DNA from: Thiomicrospira pelophila DSM 1534
Lineage (GTDB): Bacteria; Pseudomonadota; Gammaproteobacteria; Thiomicrospirales; Thiomicrospiraceae
Direction: 5' to 3'
Assembly (NCBI RefSeq): GCF_000711195.1
Contig: NZ_JOMR01000001.1
Coordinates: 744,001 to 808,000, forward strand
DNA length: 64,000 nucleotides
Shown here: piece by piece, positions 1 through 24,642 of the stretch
How positions within the stretch are numbered: the first letter of the stretch is position 1
Layout of the letters: every line of letters starts with the position of its first letter
Made by a program: the position numbers and the translations under genes
Notes under the pieces: model-generated
What the model saw: the letters and a program-made list of their open reading frames with translations, nothing else
What the model was told of the DNA's origin: nothing
Databases searched by the model: none

Positions 1-459
1 GAGCAGGATGGCATGTTTGGTTACTGGGTGGGTGGCACCGAAGCTAGCGCTGCAGCCGATCATATTGACTCTTTGATTCAGCAAGGGGGCTCATATTCTT
101 ATGCAGGCCACCTTTTAGGTGAGGTTCTCGTTAATGAATCGGTTGAAGACATTAGCGCTAGTAGCTTAGGCTTGGAGTTTAACTTTGCTACAGGTGCCAT
201 TAATGGGCATGTTTCGTTTAGTTCAGCGAGTACGGATTGGAATATGATGATTGATTCAGGTTATGTTGAATCTGGTGGATTTAGTGTGAGTACATCGGGT
301 GATGTTAATCAAGAATCTGCGTTTGCTTACGGTTATATGGACGGCAAATTCTTTGGTAAAGAAGCTAATTCAGTAGGTGGGATTTTTAGTTTTGGAACTG
401 AGGGGCAGTCGTTGGATTACTATGAAGCCAATGGTGTCTTTAAGGCGGTTAAGCCGTGA
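1..459 (+). CDS. Transferrin-binding-protein-like beta-barrel protein, C-terminal part (5' truncated)
   Basis: The reading frame is open from the first base of the window, so this is the C-terminal end of a longer protein. The visible part is rich in Gly, Ser and aromatic residues in alternating beta-strand style. Near the end it carries GKFFGKEANSVGGIFSF, which resembles the G-x-F-G-x-x-A-x-x-V-G-G-x-F signature of TbpB-type lipoprotein barrels, a domain that also ends many FecR-domain proteins. The stop overlaps the next gene by 4 bases (GTGA), so the two are translationally coupled. The next gene is a Slam-like outer-membrane protein, a family that moves TbpB-like lipoproteins to the cell surface, so a substrate-translocator pair is plausible. 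Whether the missing N-terminus has a FecR domain or a lipobox cannot be seen. Confidence 0.6.
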   Translation, partial: EQDGMFGYWVGGTEASAAADHIDSLIQQGGSYSYAGHLLGEVLVNESVEDISASSLGLEFNFATGAINGHVSFSSASTDWNMMIDSGYVESGGFSVSTSGDVNQESAFAYGYMDGKFFGKEANSVGGIFSFGTEGQSLDYYEANGVFKAVKP

Positions 460-11028: not shown

Positions 11029-13506
11029 ATGGTTTTGAATTTGATTAAATCAGCGGATAAGGATAACAGCCTCGACGATGCGGATGTGACGAAACCATCT
11101 TCGCGTTGGACATGGCTGTTAAAAGATTTGGTATTGCTAAGTTGTATAGGCTTGGCGTTTTTCTTGTTTATTATTCTTTATAGCTATCATCCAGATGATC
11201 CGGGCTTTCAAATGGCACGCTCGGTTGAGGCTTTCAATAATTACGGCGGCGCGAGTGGCGCGTGGCTGTCTTCATTAATTTTGTATTTGTTTGGGGTATT
11301 CGGTTTTGCTTGGCCATTTGGTATTTTGCTAGCCGGTTGGGTGACCTTAAAAATTCGCTCATCTACTGAGTTTGACTGGGCGCGTTTTGGGCTAAGCATG
11401 TTCGGCTTATTAATATTGGTGTTCTCTGGCGCGTCGATGGCTAGCCTATATTTGCACCCGGATAGTTGGGTTGTGAGTCTGCCGTATTATTCGGGCGGTG
11501 TACTGGGTTATGAGTTAAGTTTGTGGTTGGTTGAGGGGATCGATTTATTAGCCACCACTTTGTTCTTTTTGGTGATGTTCGCATTGGGCTTTAGCATGCT
11601 TATCGGCCAATCGTGGCTAACCATTTGTGATGTAACTGGGCGCCAGGCCTGGCGCTTGATTAGCTTTATCCATAAAAATGCCAAGAAACATGTGGTGCAT
11701 TCAGAACAGTTTAAAAACGTATTAAGTCGAATAGATTTGAAAAAAGAAACTCAAAGTCTGCCGAACTCACAAACGGTGAGACCCGTGGTTGAGCAGAGAG
11801 CTGATATGAGTGCGCGCATTGAAGAAAAACGTGCCAAATTATTTGATTCGTTTAGTAAGCCGGCTCAAGCGAAAATGCCGGTTGAAGCTTCCCCTAGCCA
11901 AATTGAACAGACCCAACAGGCTACCGCAGGGGGGGCAGCAACGAACGTTCAGGTTCATGCGCCTTACAAATCAGACTCGTCTTCTTATGTACCTGAGGCG
12001 CAGCATGCCGAATTGCCAAGTTTGGATTTATTAGATCCAGCACCGGTTTATGAAGACAGCTTTTCTGAAGACGACTTGAAAGAAATGTCGGGCTTATTGG
12101 AAACGCGTTTGCAAGAATTTGGTGTCACGGCAACGGTCGAAGCGGTGTTGCCGGGGCCCGTCGTCACGCGTTTTGAAATTATGCCAGCCGCGGGTGTGAA
12201 GGTCAGTCAGATTTCGAACCTGGCAAAAGATTTAGCGCGTGCATTGGCAGTTAAGTCAGTGCGTGTGGTGGATATTATTCCGGGCAAACCCTTTGTGGGG
12301 ATTGAGATTCCGAACGAGAAACGTGAAATTGTCGGCTTCCGCGACATTTTATCGTCAGAGGTTTTCCAAAAGAGTAAATCGCCTTTGACGATGGGGTTGG
12401 GTAAAGATATTGCCGGTAATCCTGTGATTGCTGACTTAGCTAAAATGCCGCATTTATTAGTTGCGGGTACCACCGGTTCGGGTAAATCGGTGGGTGTGAA
12501 TAGCATGATTTTAAGCTTGCTTTATAAAAGCCGAGCCGATGAAGTGCGCTTAATTATGGTGGACCCGAAGATGTTGGAATTGTCGGTTTACGAAGACATT
12601 CCGCACTTGTTAACGCCGGTTGTTACCGATATGAGTGATGCAGCCAATGCGTTGCGTTGGTGCGTGTTTGAAATGGATCGGCGTTATCAACTAATGGCCA
12701 AATTGGGCGTTAGAAATGTGGCTGGTTTTAATGAAAAAGTTCAAGCGGCGATTGATGCGGGTGAACCCATTATTGATCCGCTTTATCAGCAAGCCGTCAC
12801 CAAGGGAATGGAGCTGTCGGACGCACCGCCTACCTTAACGCCTTTGCCTTATATTGTGGTGGTGATAGACGAATTTGCTGACATGATCATGGTGGTGGGT
12901 AAAAAGGTGGAGGAGCTGATCGCGCGACTCGCACAAAAAGCGCGTGCTTCGGGGATTCATTTAATTTTGGCGACCCAGCGTCCGTCCGTAAACGTAATCA
13001 CAGGTTTGATTAAAGCTAACATTCCGACGCGTATGTCATTCCAAGTGTCATCTAAAATTGATTCACGTACTATTTTGGATCAAATGGGGGCGGAGCAGTT
13101 GTTGGGGATGGGCGATATGTTGTATTTGCCGCCCGGCACCGCCGCGCCTGATCGAGTCCATGGTGCGTTTGTCTCTGACGATGAAGTTCACCGCGTGGTG
13201 GATTTTATTAAACAGCAGGGCGCACCACAATACTTAGAGGCGATCACGCGAGACCCTGATTCAATGAATGCTGAATCGGGTAGTAACGCGGCCGATCCGA
13301 GTGATGCCGAGCAAGATGTGATTTATGATGAAGCGGTTGAGTTTGTTGTGCAAGCTGGGCGCGTGTCGATATCATCTGTTCAGCGTCGCTTTAAAATTGG
13401 TTATAACCGCGCGGCTAGAATCGTCGAGGCAATGGAAGCCGCCGGCGTGGTATCGACTATGCAGGCGAACGGCAACCGCGAAGTGCTGGTGCCCAAACAC
13501 GATTAA
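11029..13506 (+). CDS. ftsK: DNA translocase FtsK
   Basis: This 825-residue septal DNA pump clears the chromosome terminus and activates XerCD recombination. The N-terminal membrane domain (about 30-200) has four or more helices. A short, Gln- and Pro-containing linker (about 215-335) follows, much shorter than in E. coli. The motor carries Walker A GTTGSGKS near 480-488 and Walker [10 protein letters not shown] near 611. The C-terminal gamma winged helix (about 755-820, [19 protein letters not shown]) recognises KOPS sites. The ATG at 11029 has AGG only one base upstream, so the in-frame TTG at 11035 could be the true start. No clear promoter was recognised in the 208 bases between trxB and this gene. 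Confidence 0.96.
11643..11652. repeat. CCAGGCCTGG palindrome, copy 6
   Basis: Decamer flanked by G and C instead of A and T, still a 12-base palindrome. It is read in ftsK as Gln-Ala-Trp, just after the last membrane helix. Confidence 0.95.
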
Positions 13507-13537
13507 ACCGAATCAAGCCAAACAAGTAGGAAAACAC

Positions 13538-14152
13538 ATGCTAAAAAAATTATATCTAGTCGGCGGTTTGCTTGTCGCACTACCAGGCCTGGTGCTTGCC
13601 AATACGCAGCCGTTGCATAGCTTTATTGATCATCTAAAAAGCTATTCGGCGGAGTTTGTGCAGGAGCGTGAAGAAGACGCATTTTTCCGGGTTGAGCGTG
13701 CAAAAGGTACATTTGATTTAGATCGTCCAGGCAAAATGCGTTGGGATTATCACAGCCCGGAAGAGCAACATATTATTGTCGATGGTTCGCATTTGTGGGT
13801 TTATGATTTGGAATTAGACCAGGTTTCGGTGAGACCGATTGCAGACATTCAAGGGGATATTCCTTTGGCTTGGTTATTGTTTGATGAACCGGTTGAAAAA
13901 GCCTATCGAATTATCCCAGCAGGGAATCGCAATAATATGACCTGGTATAACTTGCAACCTCGTTCGGCTACCTATTTTCAAAGTATCGAAATTGGTCTAC
14001 GTGATGGCGTGATGCAAGAAGTTTGGATGTATCAGAGTGCCGATAACATCACTAAAGTTAAGTTCAAAAATATTCGCCTGAACGAGGGTGTTTCACCGCG
14101 TGCGTTTCAATTTACGCCGCCCCAGGGCGCGGATGTTGTAGGGCGCATGTAA
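13538..14152 (+). CDS. lolA: Outer-membrane lipoprotein carrier protein LolA
   Basis: This 204-residue periplasmic chaperone carries lipoproteins from LolCDE to LolB. The start at 13538 gives a clean signal peptide (MLKKLYLVGGLLVALPGLVLA, cleavage before Asn-Thr) and has an AGGA ribosome site; the open frame upstream is only ftsK read in another frame. The mature part has the LolA pattern: SYSAEFVQE, GTFDLDRPGKMRWDY, WVYDLELDQVSVRPI and a C-terminal FQFTPPQGADVV. It sits between ftsK and rarA, the standard gammaproteobacterial order. A palindrome copy supplies Pro-Gly-Leu-Val inside the signal peptide. Confidence 0.95.
   Translation: MLKKLYLVGGLLVALPGLVLANTQPLHSFIDHLKSYSAEFVQEREEDAFFRVERAKGTFDLDRPGKMRWDYHSPEEQHIIVDGSHLWVYDLELDQVSVRPIADIQGDIPLAWLLFDEPVEKAYRIIPAGNRNNMTWYNLQPRSATYFQSIEIGLRDGVMQEVWMYQSADNITKVKFKNIRLNEGVSPRAFQFTPPQGADVVGRM
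13583..13592. repeat. CCAGGCCTGG palindrome, copy 7
   Basis: 12-mer form in the LolA signal peptide, read as Pro-Gly-Leu-Val in the hydrophobic core next to the cleavage site. Confidence 0.95.
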
Positions 14153-17268: not shown

Positions 17269-17359
17269 GGTGGAATGGCAGAGCGGTTGAATGCGGCAGT
17301 CTTGAAAACTGTTGTAGGTTTGTAGCCTACCCGGGGTTCGAATCCCTGTTCCACCGCCA
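17269..17359 (+). tRNA. tRNA-Ser (anticodon UGA)
   Basis: This 91-base tRNA has a 7-bp acceptor stem (GGTGGAA with TTCCACC), a G discriminator and an encoded CCA. The anticodon loop CTTGAAA, closed by CAGT/ACTG, gives anticodon TGA, which reads UCA and UCG-type serine codons. A long class II variable arm (TAGGTTTGTAGCCTA, self-complementary) and a T arm with GGTTCGAATCC are present. These features identify it as serine rather than leucine. It lies directly downstream of serS and has its own promoter and terminator. Confidence 0.98.
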
Positions 17360-17394: not shown

Positions 17395-17573
17395 TTGCCT
17401 AAATTCTGGAAAAAGCCGATTTATAGGCTTTTAGACCAAACCCTCCAACTCTCCTCTTGTAGCTCATTAACGCCCATATCATTCATTTGTGAGTACTAAA
17501 TTTGTGACATTCTTGCGCTCATAATTTTTTTTATCTCACCTGTATTTTAATAAATATTAATATTAGTCTTGCC

Positions 17574-17610
17574 AAATTTAACTAAATAGTTAAACTATTT
17601 AGTTAAATTT
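17574..17610. promoter_or_regulatory. 37-bp palindromic operator upstream of the TetR gene
   Basis: AAATTTAACTAAATAGTT, one central A, then the exact reverse complement. It ends 15 bases before the TetR-family start codon. Each half contains AACTAAATAGTT-like dyads, so two repressor dimers could bind. It lies in a 230-base AT-rich gap (17395-17625) that holds no other gene. Autoregulation of the TetR-RND operon is the likely purpose. Read as RNA it could also form a strong hairpin, but no T tract follows. Confidence 0.8.
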
Positions 17611-17625
17611 AAGAGGTCATGAATT

Positions 17626-18231
17626 TTGAATAAAAATTACGGTAAAACGGCATTGAAAATCTTGGATTGCGCGACGGACATCTTCGCTGAGAAAGGGTTT
17701 GAAGGCACGATTATGGATGAGTTAGCCGAACATTGTGGCGTCAATAAGGCGAGTATCTACTATCACTTTAATGATAAGGCCAGCTTGTATGAGGTTTGCA
17801 TGACTCGGCTTTTTAAAAAAGTGGTGGATCAAGTGATCTTGCAGGTCGCTCAGTGTGATGGGGTAGAGGAAAAACTAAAAACCTTTGTTTACGAGTTTGC
17901 CAAAGGGGCTTACAGCCATAAACAAATGCCGGCTACTTTAATGCGAGAAATCGCGGCGGCGGGTAAAAATATGCCGGTACCAGCACGCCAGCAAATGCAG
18001 CGTCTGCTTGCCACACTAAAAGAGATCTTAATTGAAGGTGAAAAGCAGGGCGTTTTCCGTAGCGTCGATCCATTAATGATCCATTTTATGATTATTGGCA
18101 GTTTGAGTTTTCACATTACGAGTGAGCCGATGCGCTTAGCCATTCAGACTGAATCCAAAACGGATCCGAGTTTGGATGAAGCCATTGGTCATGTTTCAGA
18201 ATTGATTTATCACGCTTTATTAAGTAATTAG
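17626..18231 (+). CDS. TetR/AcrR-family transcriptional regulator
   Basis: This 201-residue repressor-type protein has an N-terminal helix-turn-helix (about residues 22-50: GTIMDELAEHCGVNKASIYYHFNDK) and a helical ligand-binding C-terminal domain. The TTG start at 17626 is chosen because AGAGG (17612-17616) lies 9 bases upstream; the ATG at 17618 runs into a stop after four codons. It is the first gene of a five-gene run, and the 37-bp palindrome in front of it is the probable operator. The inducer is unknown. Confidence 0.9.
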   Translation: MNKNYGKTALKILDCATDIFAEKGFEGTIMDELAEHCGVNKASIYYHFNDKASLYEVCMTRLFKKVVDQVILQVAQCDGVEEKLKTFVYEFAKGAYSHKQMPATLMREIAAAGKNMPVPARQQMQRLLATLKEILIEGEKQGVFRSVDPLMIHFMIIGSLSFHITSEPMRLAIQTESKTDPSLDEAIGHVSELIYHALLSN

Positions 18232-18241
18232 GGGATAAAAA

Positions 18242-20710
18242 ATGAGAAACCTAATGTTAAAAATGGAGGCTCGCTTAGGTCGTTTGGGTGCTTTCATTGC
18301 TTATGCACCGAAACGATTTATCGCGTTTAGCTTGTTATTTGTATTGGCCTTAGCCGTCAACCTGCCAAAAACCACCGTAGATACGTCAACGGAAGGGTTT
18401 TTGCACGAAACTGACTCGGTTCGAGTGATTTATGACCAGTTTCGGGATGAGTTTGGGCGTGATGAAAAAATTGTAGTCGCGATTAAGTCTGAAGATGTTT
18501 TTCAGCTTGATAACTTAGAAAAACTGCGGGAGTTACACCAGCGTTTAGCTGATGAGGTGCCTTATTTATACGATATCAGCTCATTAATTAATGCACGTAA
18601 TACCATTGGAGAAAATGACAGTCTGCTGGTGGATGATTTAATGGTGGACTGGCCACAATCTCAGCAACAGGCTGACCAAATAAAAGCACGTGCTTTAGCC
18701 AACCCCATGTATCGCAATATATTAATTAATGACGCGGCTGAGTTTACGGTTATTGTGTTGGAGTCAAATACCTATAGTAGTTTAGGTCAGAGCGAACTGA
18801 CAAATGAAGCCGATATTTTGGCCGATGAATTATCAGGGTTTGACCAGGTTACTGAGACGGTCGAAAACACAAGTCGGGCGTTTATTACCGACAAAGAAAA
18901 TAGTGAAATGGTTAAAAAAGTGGCCGAAGTTGTGGCGGACTTTAATCAACCCGGTTTTGAGATTTATGTCGCTGGTTCGCCTTCTGTTACGGCTTTTCTT
19001 AAAAGTTCTATTATGAGTGACATGCGCAAATTTATTGCCATGATTATTATTGCCATTGCGATTGTGCTGGCTTTGCTTTTTAGACGTGTTTCTGGCGTGT
19101 TGCTGCCTTTGCTTACGGTATTTTTAGCCGTTATCAGCACCATGGGGTTAATGGCTTTAACTGGCACGCCTGTAAAAGTAATGACGCAGGTTTTACCTTC
19201 CTTTTTATTGGCCGTCGGGGTAGGGGCCTCCATCCATGTATTAGCTATTTTTTATAAAAAGTTTGATCAAACCGGTGATAAAGCTCAGGCCTTAAGTTAT
19301 ACCCTTGAGCATTCCGGCGTGGCTATCATTATGACCTCTTTAACCACGGCGGCCGGTATGGCGTCTTTTGTACCTTCAAGTGTTGCACCTGTGTCCGATT
19401 TAGGTCTATTTGCTTTTGCAGGGGTCTTGATTGCGTTGGTGTTTACCTTGATTTTTTTACCGGCCATGTTGATGGTGCTGAAGATCAAACAAAAAACCTA
19501 TCAGCGTAACGATGATCATCACGATACATTGGATAAATGGTTAAAAGGTGTCGCCGCCATTTCGCAAAACCATGCCAAAAAAATAGTCGCGTTTTCTATG
19601 GTGCTGATGTTGGGATCGATTGCGATTGCGACCCAAATTGGTTATTCACACAATCCGTTGGAATGGTTTCCAGAGGAACACCCAACACGGATCGCGACTG
19701 AAACCATAGATAAAGAAATGCGTGGCACGGTGTCGCTAGAGCTGGTGATTGATACCGGGCGTCCAAGTGGTTTGTACGATGTGAGTTTATTGCAGGCAAT
19801 CGAGAAAACCACCGCTCAATTAGAAGCCATAGATCACCCCGAATATTTTGTGGGCAAAGCCGTCAGTGTGGTGGATGTGATTAAAGAAATTCATCAAGCA
19901 CTCAACAATAATGATCCAAACTTTCACGCACTGCCTGGTAGCGCAGATTTAGTTGCACAAGAAATTTTACTATTTGAGAACTCAGGCTCGGATGATCTGC
20001 AAGATTTTGTTGATAGCCAGCTGTCTAAAGCGCGCATTACTGTTAAAGCGCCTTGGATTGATGCGTTTGAATACCATAAATTATTGCAAACCACCGCACA
20101 GTTGCTGGAGGAAAACTTTGATAGTTCGGTACACATTACGACCACAGGGATGATTAATTTGTTACTTGAAACTACCACCGCTGCGATTCAGAGTGCAGGG
20201 GTGAGTTATATGATTGCCTTTGGTGTTATCGGCTTAATGCTGGTTTTATTGTTATCAAGTTTCAAGCTTGGTTTATTGGCGATGATTCCGAATAGCTTGC
20301 CTGTACTGTTTGTACTTGGGGTTATGGTGGTGTTCGACTGGCCTTTGGATCTATTTACCATGCTAATCGGTGCCATCGTGTTAGGGATTGCGGTTGATGA
20401 CATTGTGCACTTTATGCATAACTTCCGTCGTTATCACCTACAAGGTTATTCAACACGTGTTGCGGTTGAAATGACGTTAACCACTACCGGCCGCGCCATG
20501 ATGATTACCACGGTGGTATTGGTGATTGGCTTTATGTTGTATATGTTCGCCAATATGAACAACTTGTTTCTATTTGGTTTATTGACGGCGGTTGCGTTCG
20601 CAATCGCTCTGCTGGCTGTTTTCTTCTTAGCTCCGGCTTTAATGGCGCTGGTTTATCCAGACCATCAAACCAAAAAATCGAATCTTGTTTCTAAAAAAAT
20701 ATCAAATTGA
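18242..20710 (+). CDS. RND-superfamily exporter (MMPL/COG1033 type)
   Basis: This 822-residue inner-membrane protein has a tandem architecture. A membrane helix (about 25-42) and a periplasmic domain are followed by about five helices (255-420). A second helix (about 455-475), periplasmic domain and helix set (about 640-815) repeat the pattern. It lacks the extended hydrophilic domains of AcrB and has no membrane-fusion partner nearby, so it fits the single-component hydrophobe or lipid exporters related to MMPL proteins. It follows the TetR gene by 10 bases. Downstream genes encode periplasmic LolA-like and outer-membrane proteins that could complete an envelope route. The substrate is unknown. 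Confidence 0.85.
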   Translation: MRNLMLKMEARLGRLGAFIAYAPKRFIAFSLLFVLALAVNLPKTTVDTSTEGFLHETDSVRVIYDQFRDEFGRDEKIVVAIKSEDVFQLDNLEKLRELHQRLADEVPYLYDISSLINARNTIGENDSLLVDDLMVDWPQSQQQADQIKARALANPMYRNILINDAAEFTVIVLESNTYSSLGQSELTNEADILADELSGFDQVTETVENTSRAFITDKENSEMVKKVAEVVADFNQPGFEIYVAGSPSVTAFLKSSIMSDMRKFIAMIIIAIAIVLALLFRRVSGVLLPLLTVFLAVISTMGLMALTGTPVKVMTQVLPSFLLAVGVGASIHVLAIFYKKFDQTGDKAQALSYTLEHSGVAIIMTSLTTAAGMASFVPSSVAPVSDLGLFAFAGVLIALVFTLIFLPAMLMVLKIKQKTYQRNDDHHDTLDKWLKGVAAISQNHAKKIVAFSMVLMLGSIAIATQIGYSHNPLEWFPEEHPTRIATETIDKEMRGTVSLELVIDTGRPSGLYDVSLLQAIEKTTAQLEAIDHPEYFVGKAVSVVDVIKEIHQALNNNDPNFHALPGSADLVAQEILLFENSGSDDLQDFVDSQLSKARITVKAPWIDAFEYHKLLQTTAQLLEENFDSSVHITTTGMINLLLETTTAAIQSAGVSYMIAFGVIGLMLVLLLSSFKLGLLAMIPNSLPVLFVLGVMVVFDWPLDLFTMLIGAIVLGIAVDDIVHFMHNFRRYHLQGYSTRVAVEMTLTTTGRAMMITTVVLVIGFMLYMFANMNNLFLFGLLTAVAFAIALLAVFFLAPALMALVYPDHQTKKSNLVSKKISN

Positions 20711-20720
20711 GGTGATAAAA

Positions 20721-21179
20721 ATGAAATCTTTAAGTATCAAGTCATTTTGGAAAGGGATTTTAATAGCCAGCCTTACTAGCACAAGCGGTTTAGCTTTAGG
20801 GCAAGAAACGGATGCGCGAGAAGTTATTTGGCTAAGTGGAGCCGAGCGCGCGGCTTTAATGAGTGAAATGCGACTGTTTTTAAGCACCAGTCAGCAAATA
20901 TTAGAGGCCACCCTTGCAGAAGATATGACAAAGGTGGAAACCTTAGCCAGACCGGTAGGCGTGAAGTTAATGAAAGATACGCCAGCGAGTTTAAAAGATA
21001 AGCTGCCGGCGGGGTTTACTCAGTTAGGCCCACAACCACAAGCGCATTTAGGGTTTGAGAATATTGCGGATGAAGCCTCGGGTTTGGGTGATCAAACCAT
21101 CATTTTGCAACAACTGGCTGATTTGCAAAAAAGCTGTGTGGCTTGTCATGCGCAATACCAAATTAAAGTGAGGGATTAA
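20721..21179 (+). CDS. Cytochrome c'-like periplasmic c-type cytochrome
   Basis: This 152-residue protein has a signal peptide (about 1-25) and a single haem-binding motif C139-V-A-C142-H143 close to the C-terminus. Helical segments precede it, as in four-helix cytochrome c' / c556 proteins. The start at 20721 follows GAGGTG (20709-20714); the longer frame overlaps the RND gene and adds no signal sequence. It sits inside the TetR-RND operon, where a haem protein is unexpected. It might handle a redox or nitric-oxide-like ligand related to the inducer. This is inference. Confidence 0.8.
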   Translation: MKSLSIKSFWKGILIASLTSTSGLALGQETDAREVIWLSGAERAALMSEMRLFLSTSQQILEATLAEDMTKVETLARPVGVKLMKDTPASLKDKLPAGFTQLGPQPQAHLGFENIADEASGLGDQTIILQQLADLQKSCVACHAQYQIKVRD

Positions 21180-21181
21180 TA

Positions 21182-21982
21182 ATGAGAAACTGGACTAAAA
21201 CGATCGGGTTAAGTTTGTGCATGGGGATGTTTTTTACCCCCGGGTTGGCGCTGGCCTATACGGCAGATGAAGTGGCGCAAGCGGTTGATGCACGTGATGA
21301 TGGCGACAATGGTAGCGCTGTGATTCAAATGACTTTGATTGATCGCCAAGGCAATAAACGTGTGCGAACTATGAATAAGTTCGAGAAGGACTTTGGTGAA
21401 GATACACATAGTGTGATCTTTTTCTCAGATCCAAGTGATGTTCGAAATACCGCGTTTTTAACTTTCGACTATGCGGATTCATCTAAGGATGATGATCAAT
21501 GGCTATACTTGCCCGCTTTGCGTAATACTAAACGTATTGTCAGCAGTGATAAAAGTAGCAGTTTTATGGGGTCTGATTTTTCTTATGCGGATATGACCTC
21601 ACGTGCGATAGAGGACTATAGTTATAAAATTGCAAAAGAAGATGAGGTGAATGGAAACGAAGTTTGGATTATGGAAGCGGTGCCTAAGACTGAAAAAGTT
21701 CGTCGTGAGACGGGGTACGACAAATCTTACATGTTTGTGCGCAAAGATAACTTTGTGGTGATTAGGGCGATTCACTTTCAAACCGATGGCAAGCGTAAGT
21801 ACATGGATGTAAAAGAGCTTGAAAAAATCGAAGGTATTTGGGTGCCAACCTTAATCGAGATGCGCACAACCAAAGATAAGATCACCTTGCATACCACCTT
21901 GATGAGTTTTAGAGATGTTAAGTTTAACCAAGACTTTGATGAGAGCTTTTTCTCTGTTCGACGAATTGAGCGTGGCTTATAA
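21182..21982 (+). CDS. LolA-like outer-membrane lipoprotein-sorting family protein
   Basis: This 266-residue periplasmic protein has a signal peptide ending near ALA-YTADE. The mature part fits the COG2834-like family of RND-linked proteins, with ADSSKDDDQWLYLPALRNTKRI, SFMGSDFSYADM and a long beta-rich C-terminal half. The fold is probably a LolA/LolB half-barrel that holds a hydrophobic ligand. It starts 3 bases after the cytochrome gene and ends 2 bases before the DUF1302 gene. With the RND exporter and the outer-membrane protein it could form an export chain for a lipid-like molecule. Confidence 0.8.
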   Translation: MRNWTKTIGLSLCMGMFFTPGLALAYTADEVAQAVDARDDGDNGSAVIQMTLIDRQGNKRVRTMNKFEKDFGEDTHSVIFFSDPSDVRNTAFLTFDYADSSKDDDQWLYLPALRNTKRIVSSDKSSSFMGSDFSYADMTSRAIEDYSYKIAKEDEVNGNEVWIMEAVPKTEKVRRETGYDKSYMFVRKDNFVVIRAIHFQTDGKRKYMDVKELEKIEGIWVPTLIEMRTTKDKITLHTTLMSFRDVKFNQDFDESFFSVRRIERGL

Positions 21983-21983
21983 A

Positions 21984-23414
21984 ATGCGTTTTAGGTCACC
22001 AATCTACGCCCTAGGGATCGGGGTTTTATTAACCCTGTCGATGAATGGCGCTTGGGCAAACAGCGAATTAGATGATGCATTAGGCGGATTTGATGAATCT
22101 GCAGAAGCGAAAAATGATTTAGGTGAAGCGTTACAAGGGTTTGACTCCTCCGATCTATCTAGTGCTAAATCAACCCCGAGCTCAAGTTCTCCTAGCTGGT
22201 TGAACCTACGGACAATGCTAGGGGTGAACAGTCAGTTTACAACCGCGCATTCGGCGCCACCGCAAAATGAAGTGGATTGGCGGGGGCTACAGCAGTTACA
22301 GCTTAAAACCCGAATTGAAGCGGATGCGGACTTACCCAATAGCTGGAAAGCCAAATTGGGCGTTAACGCCAATTATGATGTGGTTTACCATTTAAATGAC
22401 CGAGATTCTTATCCTAAAGAGGTTTTAAAAACCCAAGAATCTGAATCCGAAATCTTTGAAGCTTATGTCACCGGTTCCTTAACCGATCAAGTGGACTTGA
22501 AAGTGGGGCGTCAAATCGAGGTTTGGGGTAAATCGGATAGCATACGTATCACAGATGTCATTAACCCGTTGGATAATCGACAACCAGGCCTGGTAGATAT
22601 AGAAGATTTACGTTTACCTATCTTTGCAAGCAAGATGACAGCTTATTCATCAAACTGGGCGTTTTCATTATTGGCTTTGCATGAGCAGCGTCCACCAAAA
22701 GAACCAGCGATCAACGGAGAGTTTTTACCATTAGAGGCTTTTCCATTTCCGCCTGGATTCAAATTTCCAGAAGTGGATAGCCAAAAGTCGGATTATGAAA
22801 CCACGTTTGCGGCTTCAGCGGAGGGACGATTTAGTGGTTGGGATTTATCGCTTTATGCCGCTCGTGTCCAAGACAGTCGTTGGCATTTTACTGACAATAA
22901 AACCGCACGAGACTATGGTTTGATAAATATGGTTGGGGCGGCGGCTAACTTTTCGTTTGGCGGCGGATTAATAAAAACCGAGGTCGCCTATTTGTCGGAT
23001 TTACGTTACAACACCACTACTGATAAAAAACATCGCATAGATTGGTTACTGGGTTATGACTATATGTCGATACCGGATTGGACGTTATCGATTGAAGTGG
23101 CCGATCGATATATCCAAAATTATGAGCCTAAAATGGGCGATTTACCTGATGCCGTTGAAGAGCATAATTGGCAAACGGCAGGCCGGGTTAGTTACAGCTT
23201 TGATCGAGATCGAGCGCAACTGAGTTATTTGGTTTCATTGCTTGGAGAAGCCGGACAGCAGGGCGGTTTTCAGCGTTTGTGGTTAGACTATGATTATAGT
23301 GATCATATCAATTTAACCTTTGGCTATATTGATTATCTCGGTGGCGATCATTCTTTGTGGGAGGCGATGAAAAACAATGATCGAGTTTACGTCGGTCTTG
23401 ATTACTACTTTTAA
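21984..23414 (+). CDS. DUF1302-family outer-membrane beta-barrel protein
   Basis: This 476-residue protein has a signal peptide ending ANG/GAWA-NSELDD. A short Asp/Ser-rich linker (about 27-70) leads into a beta-barrel that ends in Asp-Tyr-Tyr-Phe, the usual Bam C-terminal signal. The stretch VDLKVGRQIEVWGKSDSIRITDVINPLDNRQPG matches the conserved DUF1302 core. The start at 21984 is chosen over the longer frame inside the LolA-like gene, since it yields the signal peptide. It is the last gene of the TetR-RND run. The palindrome supplies Pro-Gly-Leu-Val next to the conserved NPLDNR segment. Confidence 0.8.
   Translation: MRFRSPIYALGIGVLLTLSMNGAWANSELDDALGGFDESAEAKNDLGEALQGFDSSDLSSAKSTPSSSSPSWLNLRTMLGVNSQFTTAHSAPPQNEVDWRGLQQLQLKTRIEADADLPNSWKAKLGVNANYDVVYHLNDRDSYPKEVLKTQESESEIFEAYVTGSLTDQVDLKVGRQIEVWGKSDSIRITDVINPLDNRQPGLVDIEDLRLPIFASKMTAYSSNWAFSLLALHEQRPPKEPAINGEFLPLEAFPFPPGFKFPEVDSQKSDYETTFAASAEGRFSGWDLSLYAARVQDSRWHFTDNKTARDYGLINMVGAAANFSFGGGLIKTEVAYLSDLRYNTTTDKKHRIDWLLGYDYMSIPDWTLSIEVADRYIQNYEPKMGDLPDAVEEHNWQTAGRVSYSFDRDRAQLSYLVSLLGEAGQQGGFQRLWLDYDYSDHINLTFGYIDYLGGDHSLWEAMKNNDRVYVGLDYYF
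22584..22593. repeat. CCAGGCCTGG palindrome, copy 9
   Basis: 12-mer form in the DUF1302 gene, read as Pro-Gly-Leu-Val. It is the only copy in the accessory operon and the first after a 7.7-kb gap. Confidence 0.95.
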
Positions 23415-23499: not shown

Positions 23500-24642
23500 T
23501 TAAGCCGTTTTGTGGACAGCTTTGAGTTCTTTCAGGTGTTTTGAAAAATCCCTTTCCTTGTCTGGCGATGGGCCGAGTGGATCAGCTGTCGGAGTTTGAC
23601 CGAGAAGTACTTGCATGCTGCCGGTTACGCAATGTCCTAGGGTTTCGACATCGTAGCCACCGCCAAGCGATAGGCTTAAACGACCGTCACATAATTCTTG
23701 AGCTGTTTGTTTCAAGCGGTTAACCAGCTGGTTGTATCCATCCACACTTACAAGGTGTTGAGCAAGCGGATCGCGCCAGTGTCCATCGTAACCAGCAAAT
23801 ACAATAATATGTTGTGGTTTAAAAGCTTTTAATTTTGGATAAATAATTTCGTTAAAGGCTTTGAGGTAGGTTTTATCGCCGGCATCACGAAGAAATGGGC
23901 AGTTAACATTCGTGCCTTTCGCTTCGCCTTCACCAACCCATTCCATGCCGCCAGTCAATGGCCAGTAGGGATGTTGGTGAATGGACACGGCCATAATGCT
24001 TGGGTCGTTAATGGTCATGTCTTGTGTGCCGTTGCCATGATGCACATCGAAATCAACAATCGCGACACGTTTTATGCCACGATATTGCTGCAACGCTCTG
24101 GCGGCGATAACATCGGAGTTGAAGATACAAAAGCCCATTGCTTTGTCTTTTAAAGCATGGTGTCCTGGTGGTCTGAGTAGAGCAAAACCATTGTCCACTT
24201 TACGGTCATATACGGCTAAGTTCAGCTCAATCGCGGCACCAGCGGCGGTTCTAGCGGCATCAAATGAAGCGGCATTAATGTAAGTGTCTTCGTGATAGGG
24301 ATCGTAATAGCCGACATGAGTTTGACTGAGGTGTTCGATTTCGTCGATATAAGTTTGACTGTGCGCCCATCGGAGTTCTTCATTTTTGGCCATACGTGCA
24401 GCGACTGGGCTAAGTTGATTCCAAAGGTCGCGCTTTTCTAATGCACGATCAATAGCAATTAGGCGTTCGGCGCTCTCAGGATGACCTTTCATTGTATGCT
24501 TTAAAAATAGATCATCTAGCACGACTCCAGTGCTGTTTGTAGCAGAGAATGTTGTGTTAGCCCAGCTTAAGCCACTGTATGAGGCAGTAGTGGTCGCCCC
24601 TAGTGCGAGTAATTTTTGTATAAACTGTCTGCGGCCATTCAT
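23500..24642 (-). CDS. Tat-exported histone-deacetylase-family (arginase-fold) amidohydrolase
   Basis: This 380-residue zinc deacetylase belongs to the HDAC / acetoin-utilisation / acetylpolyamine amidohydrolase superfamily. The N-terminus MNGRRQFIQKLLALGATTTA carries a twin-arginine motif and a hydrophobic stretch, which suggests folded export by Tat. The catalytic features are visible: RPPGHHALKDKAMGFC near 160-175 with the His pair, DFDVHHGNGTQ near 197 with zinc-binding Asp and His, AGYDGH near 284 with the second zinc Asp, and a Tyr in the SLGGGYD loop. The substrate is unknown; acetylated polyamines or cell-wall amides are possible for a periplasmic enzyme. No obvious operon partner is present. 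Confidence 0.85.
   Translation of the reverse strand: MNGRRQFIQKLLALGATTTASYSGLSWANTTFSATNSTGVVLDDLFLKHTMKGHPESAERLIAIDRALEKRDLWNQLSPVAARMAKNEELRWAHSQTYIDEIEHLSQTHVGYYDPYHEDTYINAASFDAARTAAGAAIELNLAVYDRKVDNGFALLRPPGHHALKDKAMGFCIFNSDVIAARALQQYRGIKRVAIVDFDVHHGNGTQDMTINDPSIMAVSIHQHPYWPLTGGMEWVGEGEAKGTNVNCPFLRDAGDKTYLKAFNEIIYPKLKAFKPQHIIVFAGYDGHWRDPLAQHLVSVDGYNQLVNRLKQTAQELCDGRLSLSLGGGYDVETLGHCVTGSMQVLLGQTPTADPLGPSPDKERDFSKHLKELKAVHKTA

Follow-up and report, generated by a model that had tools for sequence, protein, structure and literature searches.

A TetR-family regulator paired with a class II cytochrome and an exchangeable exporter in Thiomicrospira pelophila and its relatives

The five-gene run and its predicted operator

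We analysed a window of 64,000 nucleotides from the genome of Thiomicrospira pelophila DSM 1534 (2.1 Mb, a single contig), and positions are counted from the first letter of that window unless a locus handle is given. Five genes on the + strand, with intergenic gaps of 1 to 10 bases, occupy positions 17626 to 23414. A preliminary description had read them as one operon of TetR, RND, cytochrome, LolA-like and DUF1302 genes, which the Pfam matches, the common strand and the short gaps confirm; to its gene list we add a palindrome and a pair of promoter-like hexamers:

17569..17596 (+), promoter-like hexamers TTGCCA-N16-TAAACT, overlapping the predicted operator
17577..17607, near-perfect palindrome of 31 bp and predicted TetR operator, with a core pattern that recurs in 17 of 62 genomes of the order
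17626..18231 (+), TetR-family repressor, 201 aa, TTG start (Pfam TetR_N, 58 bits)
18242..20710 (+), MMPL/HAE3-type RND transporter, 822 aa (Pfam MMPL, 95 bits)
20721..21179 (+), c-type cytochrome of class II, with a CVACH haem site close to the C-terminus and an invariant Met in predicted helix A
21182..21982 (+), LolA_like periplasmic carrier, PF17131, 266 aa (Pfam, 183 bits)
21984..23414 (+), DUF1302 outer-membrane barrel, 476 aa from ATG 21984 (Pfam, 80 bits)

Re-reading the sequence placed the most likely start of the cytochrome gene at ATG 20721 and that of the DUF1302 gene at ATG 21984, a longer open reading frame from 21915 overlapping the LolA_like gene. The run is flanked on its 5' side by a serine tRNA (17269-17359) with a terminator-like hairpin behind it, and on its 3' side by an oppositely oriented gene encoding a histone-deacetylase-like protein (23500-24642 (-)). 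A close relative of this histone-deacetylase-fold neighbour (520 bits) lies at L228 8202-9335 (-), near a TetR-cytochrome-ABC run of genome G118. Among named organisms, Thiomicrospira sp. UBA5634 has the closest relative of the operon, with the same gene run; G057, which is labelled as the same genus, has this run too.

The RND protein scores 193 bits against the NCBIfam HAE3 model TIGR00921, under its 352-bit cut-off, and its best solved relatives by sequence comparison are of the HpnN type (5khn and 6wu0, the first of which we take to be the hopanoid transporter HpnN) and MmpL3. Its second half keeps an Asp-Asp pair (Asp719 in 76/76 and Asp720 in 75/76 aligned sequences) and its first half an invariant His, with His332 and His723 both present in 76/76. 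The LolA_like protein also has a weak match to DUF1329 (29 bits, covering a part of that profile), and its solved relatives by sequence are 9tp6, 4z48 and 3bk5. A separate housekeeping LolA is encoded at 13325-14152, some 3.5 kb upstream; the genome therefore has a LolA besides the LolA_like carrier, and we rejected the reading of the operon's protein as the housekeeping one. The model of the DUF1302 protein (pLDDT 85) is an AlgE/OprD-like barrel, matching AlgE with Z about 22 and rmsd 3.9 over 318 residues at 12% identity; FadL-type barrels were not among the best 50 rows, which excludes nothing. We found no membrane-fusion or TolC-type gene in 17626-23414, where the barrel is porin-like, and discarded an HAE1 tripartite efflux pump on this ground. 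The route without a typical tripartite pump proposed in the preliminary description agrees with this combination of HAE3-type permease, LolA_like carrier and AlgE/OprD-like barrel.

The closest described counterpart is AmeABCD of Castellaniella defragrans, comprising the DUF1302 protein AmeA, the DUF1329 protein AmeB, AmeC (COG4447) and the HAE3 permease AmeD (PMC6394551). Both cassettes combine a DUF1302 outer-membrane protein, a LolA-superfamily periplasmic protein and an HAE3/MMPL permease, the present one scoring below the TIGR00921 cut-off. The AmeB carrier of AmeABCD is a DUF1329 protein, whereas that of the Thiomicrospira operon matches PF17131 strongly and DUF1329 weakly; the Thiomicrospira operon further has a cytochrome and a TetR gene; no AmeC-like COG4447 protein was found among its five proteins, and 17626-23414 has no room for another gene. 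The word 'cytochrome' is absent from the accessible portion of the AmeABCD text (PMC6394551). Thalassolituus TOL_3187/TOL_3188 likewise places MMPL and LolA-like domains beside a porin, but in one protein, with induction by a hydrophobe as a feature of the Thalassolituus system and no cytochrome or TetR partner described in the accessible part of that report (PMC6304351).

To look for the predicted operator elsewhere, we searched the 25-base core of the palindrome against 62 genomes of the order. With at most one mismatch it occurs in 17 of the 62. Sixteen of these places are at the present locus, preceding tetR or, in G012 and G028, standing between it and the RND gene; the sixteen include G011, whose contig begins just upstream and in which no tetR was found. 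The seventeenth is in an unrelated gene run of G033. Two TetR genomes fall beyond the one-mismatch limit, G006 with two mismatches and G029 with a degenerate site. A control pattern, the core reversed, matched between 0 and 2 times on each strand of a genome when three mismatches were allowed. Near-matches in G033, G034, G050 and G026 were set aside as one syntenic run of short same-strand open reading frames, which resembles a ribosomal-protein operon as judged by their sizes only; other near-matches have three mismatches in G014, G022 and G028 (a second site), and further ones occur in G033 and G050. A search of the window's own genome (G000) for further copies, as a wider regulon would have, returned a single place only. 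With 16 of the 17 core places at this locus, the TetR protein looks like a single-locus, self-controlling repressor. As for the promoter, both the TTG just 5' of the predicted operator and the TAAACT within it recur in several relatives, and promoter-like matches overall are not above shuffles in that region (15 found, mean 13.3).

A cytochrome with an invariant distal methionine

The cytochrome matches Cytochrom_C_2 only just over the Pfam cut-off (26.9 against 26.5 bits). Its haem site, CVACH, is a CxxCH motif placed C-terminally as in cytochrome c', and M51, A77, C140, C143 and H144 (numbering from 20718) are invariant in 25/25 aligned cytochromes. An EMR motif including the invariant Met is found in the cytochrome-family member of each of 40 loci from the wider class. 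In the family profile this Met aligns with Met7 of cytochrome b562. A structural model (pLDDT 80) points the same way: its residues 45..148 align to 1..106 of engineered cb562 chains, a range in which Met51 would fall at about residue 7 and His144 at about residue 102, assuming no gap near the ends. We take Met7 and His102 to be the haem-binding residues of b562. Many of the VIA rows for the model are presumably receptor constructs carrying engineered b562 as a fusion, and their Z scores of about 10 are below the level that the tool advises for helical bundles. Foldseek on the model returned no match at E 0.001 or below, and a PDB sequence search with the single cytochrome sequence as query gave only irrelevant matches.

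At the position where cytochrome c' has a non-ligating distal residue, this family thus has an invariant Met, and the protein would share the haem ligands of the low-spin class II cytochromes (b562/c556-like), an axial Met from helix A and a His close to the C-terminus. Because the invariant Met aligns on b562 Met7, we favour a six-coordinate electron carrier over an NO-binding cytochrome c'. The protein resembles b562 and c556 as a probable four-helix haem protein; it differs from them in its CxxCH haem site and in being encoded with TetR, exporter, nnrS or nir genes.

Regulator, cytochrome and exporter across genomes

TetR orthologs (E up to 1e-25) were found in 17 of the 62 genomes of the order. 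Their gene runs take four forms, besides one truncated run:

TetR-RND-cytochrome-LolA_like-DUF1302, n=8: G000, G057, G028, G038, G040, G044, G045, G046
TetR with RND-LolA_like-DUF1302 and no cytochrome: G012, whose cytochrome lies ~6.6 kb away beside nnrS
TetR-cytochrome-HlyD-MacB/FtsX-ABC: G029, G024
TetR-cytochrome with no recognised exporter: G005, G006, G007, G008, G015
TetR-cytochrome, cut by a contig end: G037

The run of G040 reaches a contig end within the DUF1302 gene, and in G015 a 261-aa open reading frame of no recognised family follows on the same strand. The cytochrome lies within the TetR gene run in 16/17 genomes, whereas the RND-LolA_like-DUF1302 set is at the TetR locus in 9/17, an HlyD/MacB/ABC set takes its place in 2/17, no exporter is recognised in 5/17 and the run is cut in 1/17. 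From these counts, the regulator and the cytochrome are the constant part of the locus and the exporter an exchangeable, optional part. The gene-neighbourhood survey for which the preliminary description had called therefore identifies the cytochrome as a steadier partner of TetR than the RND set. The HlyD/MacB/ABC form recurs in G118, from the sample of the wider class; these MacAB-type sets belong to a different exporter class from the RND set that they replace in G029, G024 and G118.

A close LolA_like match is present in 10 of the 62 genomes of the order, and the cytochrome lies inside 8 of the 10 close operons, G011 and G012 being those that lack it. Its place is not fixed at the middle of the operon, as the preliminary description had it: in relatives it stands after the RND, LolA_like or DUF1302 gene, before the RND gene, or divergent from tetR. 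A second cytochrome stands between LolA_like and DUF1302 in G038, G044 and G045, and these second copies form the sister clade of the first in a maximum-likelihood tree, which points to duplications. Maximum-likelihood trees of TetR and the cytochrome share small clades, with deep branches that have no resolution. Some cytochromes of the same family in the order are not near TetR, and the more distant RND-LolA_like sets L094-L096 (from G044, G030 and G028) lack a cytochrome. The cytochromes of G044 (the first), G037 and several class loci were read separately, each having been masked by a longer overlapping open reading frame; a similar cause probably left eight of the loci L097-L176 without a LolA call.

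Outside the order, the RND-LolA_like-DUF1302 core is common without TetR or cytochrome, at loci titled Sulfurimonas, Sulfurovum, Desulfobacterales and others. Among 78 such core loci with a LolA call (81 before the removal of three duplicates), five have a match to the cytochrome profile within 1.5 kb (L102, L105, L107, L163, L242), placed before RND or after DUF1302 and more distant than the Thiomicrospira kind. Cytochrome-profile matches make up 5/170 small open reading frames near the core and 0/188 far from it (one-sided p = 0.023); small haem genes generally are not enriched there (12/170 near, 9/188 far, p = 0.38, or p = 0.50 before duplicate removal). Loci L097-L101, the same places as fetched G genomes, were excluded from these near/far counts and from the cytochrome and RND alignments. 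At L163 7054-12317 (Sulfurimonas), the core is followed by genes for cytochrome b561, a class II cytochrome, FadL, a CRP-like regulator and NnrS.

At the level of the class, the cytochrome family was found in 48 of 369 genomes, at 52 places, of which 40 were fetched, with Pfam run on the genes of G313 only. At three of the 40, an AcrB-type RND gene is found no more than about 5 kb from the cytochrome. In G116 and G252, which belong to one genus, the cytochrome is divergent from a TetR gene (37-39% identity) followed by an RND gene (49% identity), and in G095 a cytochrome P460 gene (L229 6695-7195 (-)) is divergent from TetR-RND-LolA_like-DUF1302.

Nitrogen oxides as the best lead

In four of the 17 TetR genomes (G057, G006, G024, G037), nnrS is divergent from tetR with the predicted operator in the shared gap. 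The chance of this adjacency is 2e-9 if each of the 17 copies is placed at random among 2000 genes, or 7e-7 if it is counted as three events, relatedness being ignored in both figures. Presence of nnrS is likewise more frequent in TetR genomes (16/17) than in those without TetR (26/45; p = 0.006, relatedness ignored). In G011 and G012, nnrS, the cytochrome and a chemoreceptor with a NIT (nitrate/nitrite) domain form one run, and in G057 a NIT chemoreceptor directly follows DUF1302; a NIT chemoreceptor is over the cut-off in 31 of the 62 genomes of the order, near the operon set only in these three. Chemoreceptor genes adjoin the cytochrome at five more loci of the order (L072, L073, L074, L077, L079), and Pfam found no NIT domain in those of L072, L074, L077 and L079. 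In G116, an RND-nnrS run faces LolA_like-DUF1302, with the cytochrome and TetR-RND on another contig.

Among the 40 class (gammaproteobacterial) loci, nirS or haem-d1 genes lie near the cytochrome at four (P about 1.5e-4 under a rough model), one of which, L290, has only haem-d1-type genes that score well. Two others, G313 (L280 3467-5535) and G408 (L303 4926-7035), have the gene order nirJ-cytochrome-nirS, in G313 with a NorB-like gene of the COX1 family also close by; there, the cytochrome is a possible, and unusual, electron donor to cd1 nitrite reductase. No nir neighbour was found at 36 of the 40 class loci and no nnrS near the cytochrome at any of them. The genome of the window itself has its nnrS some 630 kb from the operon, and no NIT gene was found in it. 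The 62 genomes of the order gave one weak match to NirS and none to NirK over the cut-off, so no classical NO producer was found in the order, and we discarded classical denitrification there.

Several nitrogen-oxide regulators have nnrS among their core targets (PMC1274295). The operator-sharing nnrS genes resemble the NsrR, NorR, DNR and NnrR regulons in this recurring target and differ from them in the regulator, which in those regulons belongs to families other than TetR (the string 'tetr' does not appear in the text; PMC1274295). We consider nitrogen oxides the best lead offered by the gene company in relatives. The nitric-oxide link suggested in the preliminary description is sustained by this company (nnrS, NIT and nir genes) and is not supported as far as it made the cytochrome a gas binder.

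Our preferred reading, tentative and held at somewhat below even probability, is a TetR-repressed envelope-stress operon, induced by nitrogen oxides, that joins a constant cytochrome electron carrier to a variable exporter. TetR bound to the palindrome over its own promoter would block transcription, and a ligand made or accumulated under nitrite or NO stress would release it. The constant output would be the periplasmic low-spin cytochrome, with Met and His as probable haem ligands, passing electrons to a partner that handles nitrogen oxides, for which NnrS is the best candidate in the order. As the variable output, the HAE3 RND protein may extract from the inner membrane a hydrophobic compound, probably one that is damaged or toxic, which the LolA_like protein would shuttle through the periplasm and the DUF1302 barrel deliver into or through the outer membrane, the presumed direction of transport being outward. 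Counting against this reading, along with the distant nnrS and single operator place of the window's own genome, the lack of nnrS at the 40 class loci and the lack of a classical NO producer in the order, is the spread of the cytochrome family over 48 of 369 genomes, which leaves room for a general role in electron transport.

The strongest alternative, a real possibility in our judgement, is a general operon of the AmeABCD kind for efflux of hydrophobes or solvents, with the cytochrome as a generic periplasmic electron carrier under the same repressor and the nitrogen-oxide neighbours incidental. Ligands of TetR proteins are usually hydrophobic, the exporter can be swapped for a MacB-type set, AcrB-type RND genes accompany the cytochrome at three of the class loci, and nnrS is near none of the 40. 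According to the accessible parts of two reports, deletion of ameABCD lowers monoterpene tolerance (PMC6394551), and the Thalassolituus MMPL+LolA protein and adjoining porin are induced by the n-C28 alkane (PMC6304351). Against general efflux stand the persistence of TetR-cytochrome without a recognised exporter in five genomes and the nnrS genes across the operator in four.

The kinship of the RND protein with HpnN and MmpL3, together with the many Sulfurimonas, Sulfurovum and Desulfobacterales loci whose three-gene core has neither TetR nor cytochrome, would suit the trafficking of a hopanoid-like or fatty-acyl lipid into the outer membrane as routine envelope building, the cytochrome and regulator being lineage additions. 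We think this improbable: a patchy presence and a dedicated repressor are unlike a housekeeping lipid route. The version in the preliminary description, in which a five-coordinate cytochrome c' binds or scavenges NO and so reports on or detoxifies the cargo, is less probable again; the Cytochrom_C_2 match and the nnrS and P460 neighbours in relatives are what it would lead one to expect, and the invariant distal Met, on b562 Met7 by profile and by model range, is not. Chance insertion of the cytochrome gene, which the preliminary description had tied to its absence from all other instances of the operon and which could at most draw on the two close operons without it, is refuted by its presence in the other eight and by its pairing with TetR in 16 of the 17 TetR genomes, in several positions and also without an exporter.

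Returning to the preferred reading of a nitrogen-oxide-induced operon, a more specific form, which we regard as speculative and rather unlikely, is a nitrogen-oxide regulon run by TetR instead of NsrR, NorR or CRP/FNR, in which the fixed effector, a low-spin cytochrome whose family is partly associated with nirS, works with NnrS while exchangeable exporters clear nitro- or nitroso-damaged lipids or quinones. The literature searched (titles and abstract openings, with subscription journals sparsely covered) held no description of a TetR-cytochrome-exporter or TetR-nnrS regulon. To our knowledge, HAE3 RND-LolA_like-DUF1302 sets, though widespread, are almost uncharacterised, and we know of no electron partner of NnrS, for which this cytochrome is a candidate in the periplasm. 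The locus suggests a poorly known strategy against nitrogen-oxide stress, in which one TetR-controlled gene set combines a haem protein with a swappable exporter. It offers a regulator with a likely operator, a redox partner and a candidate stress, so that the inducer and the cargo become testable in cultured sulfur oxidisers.
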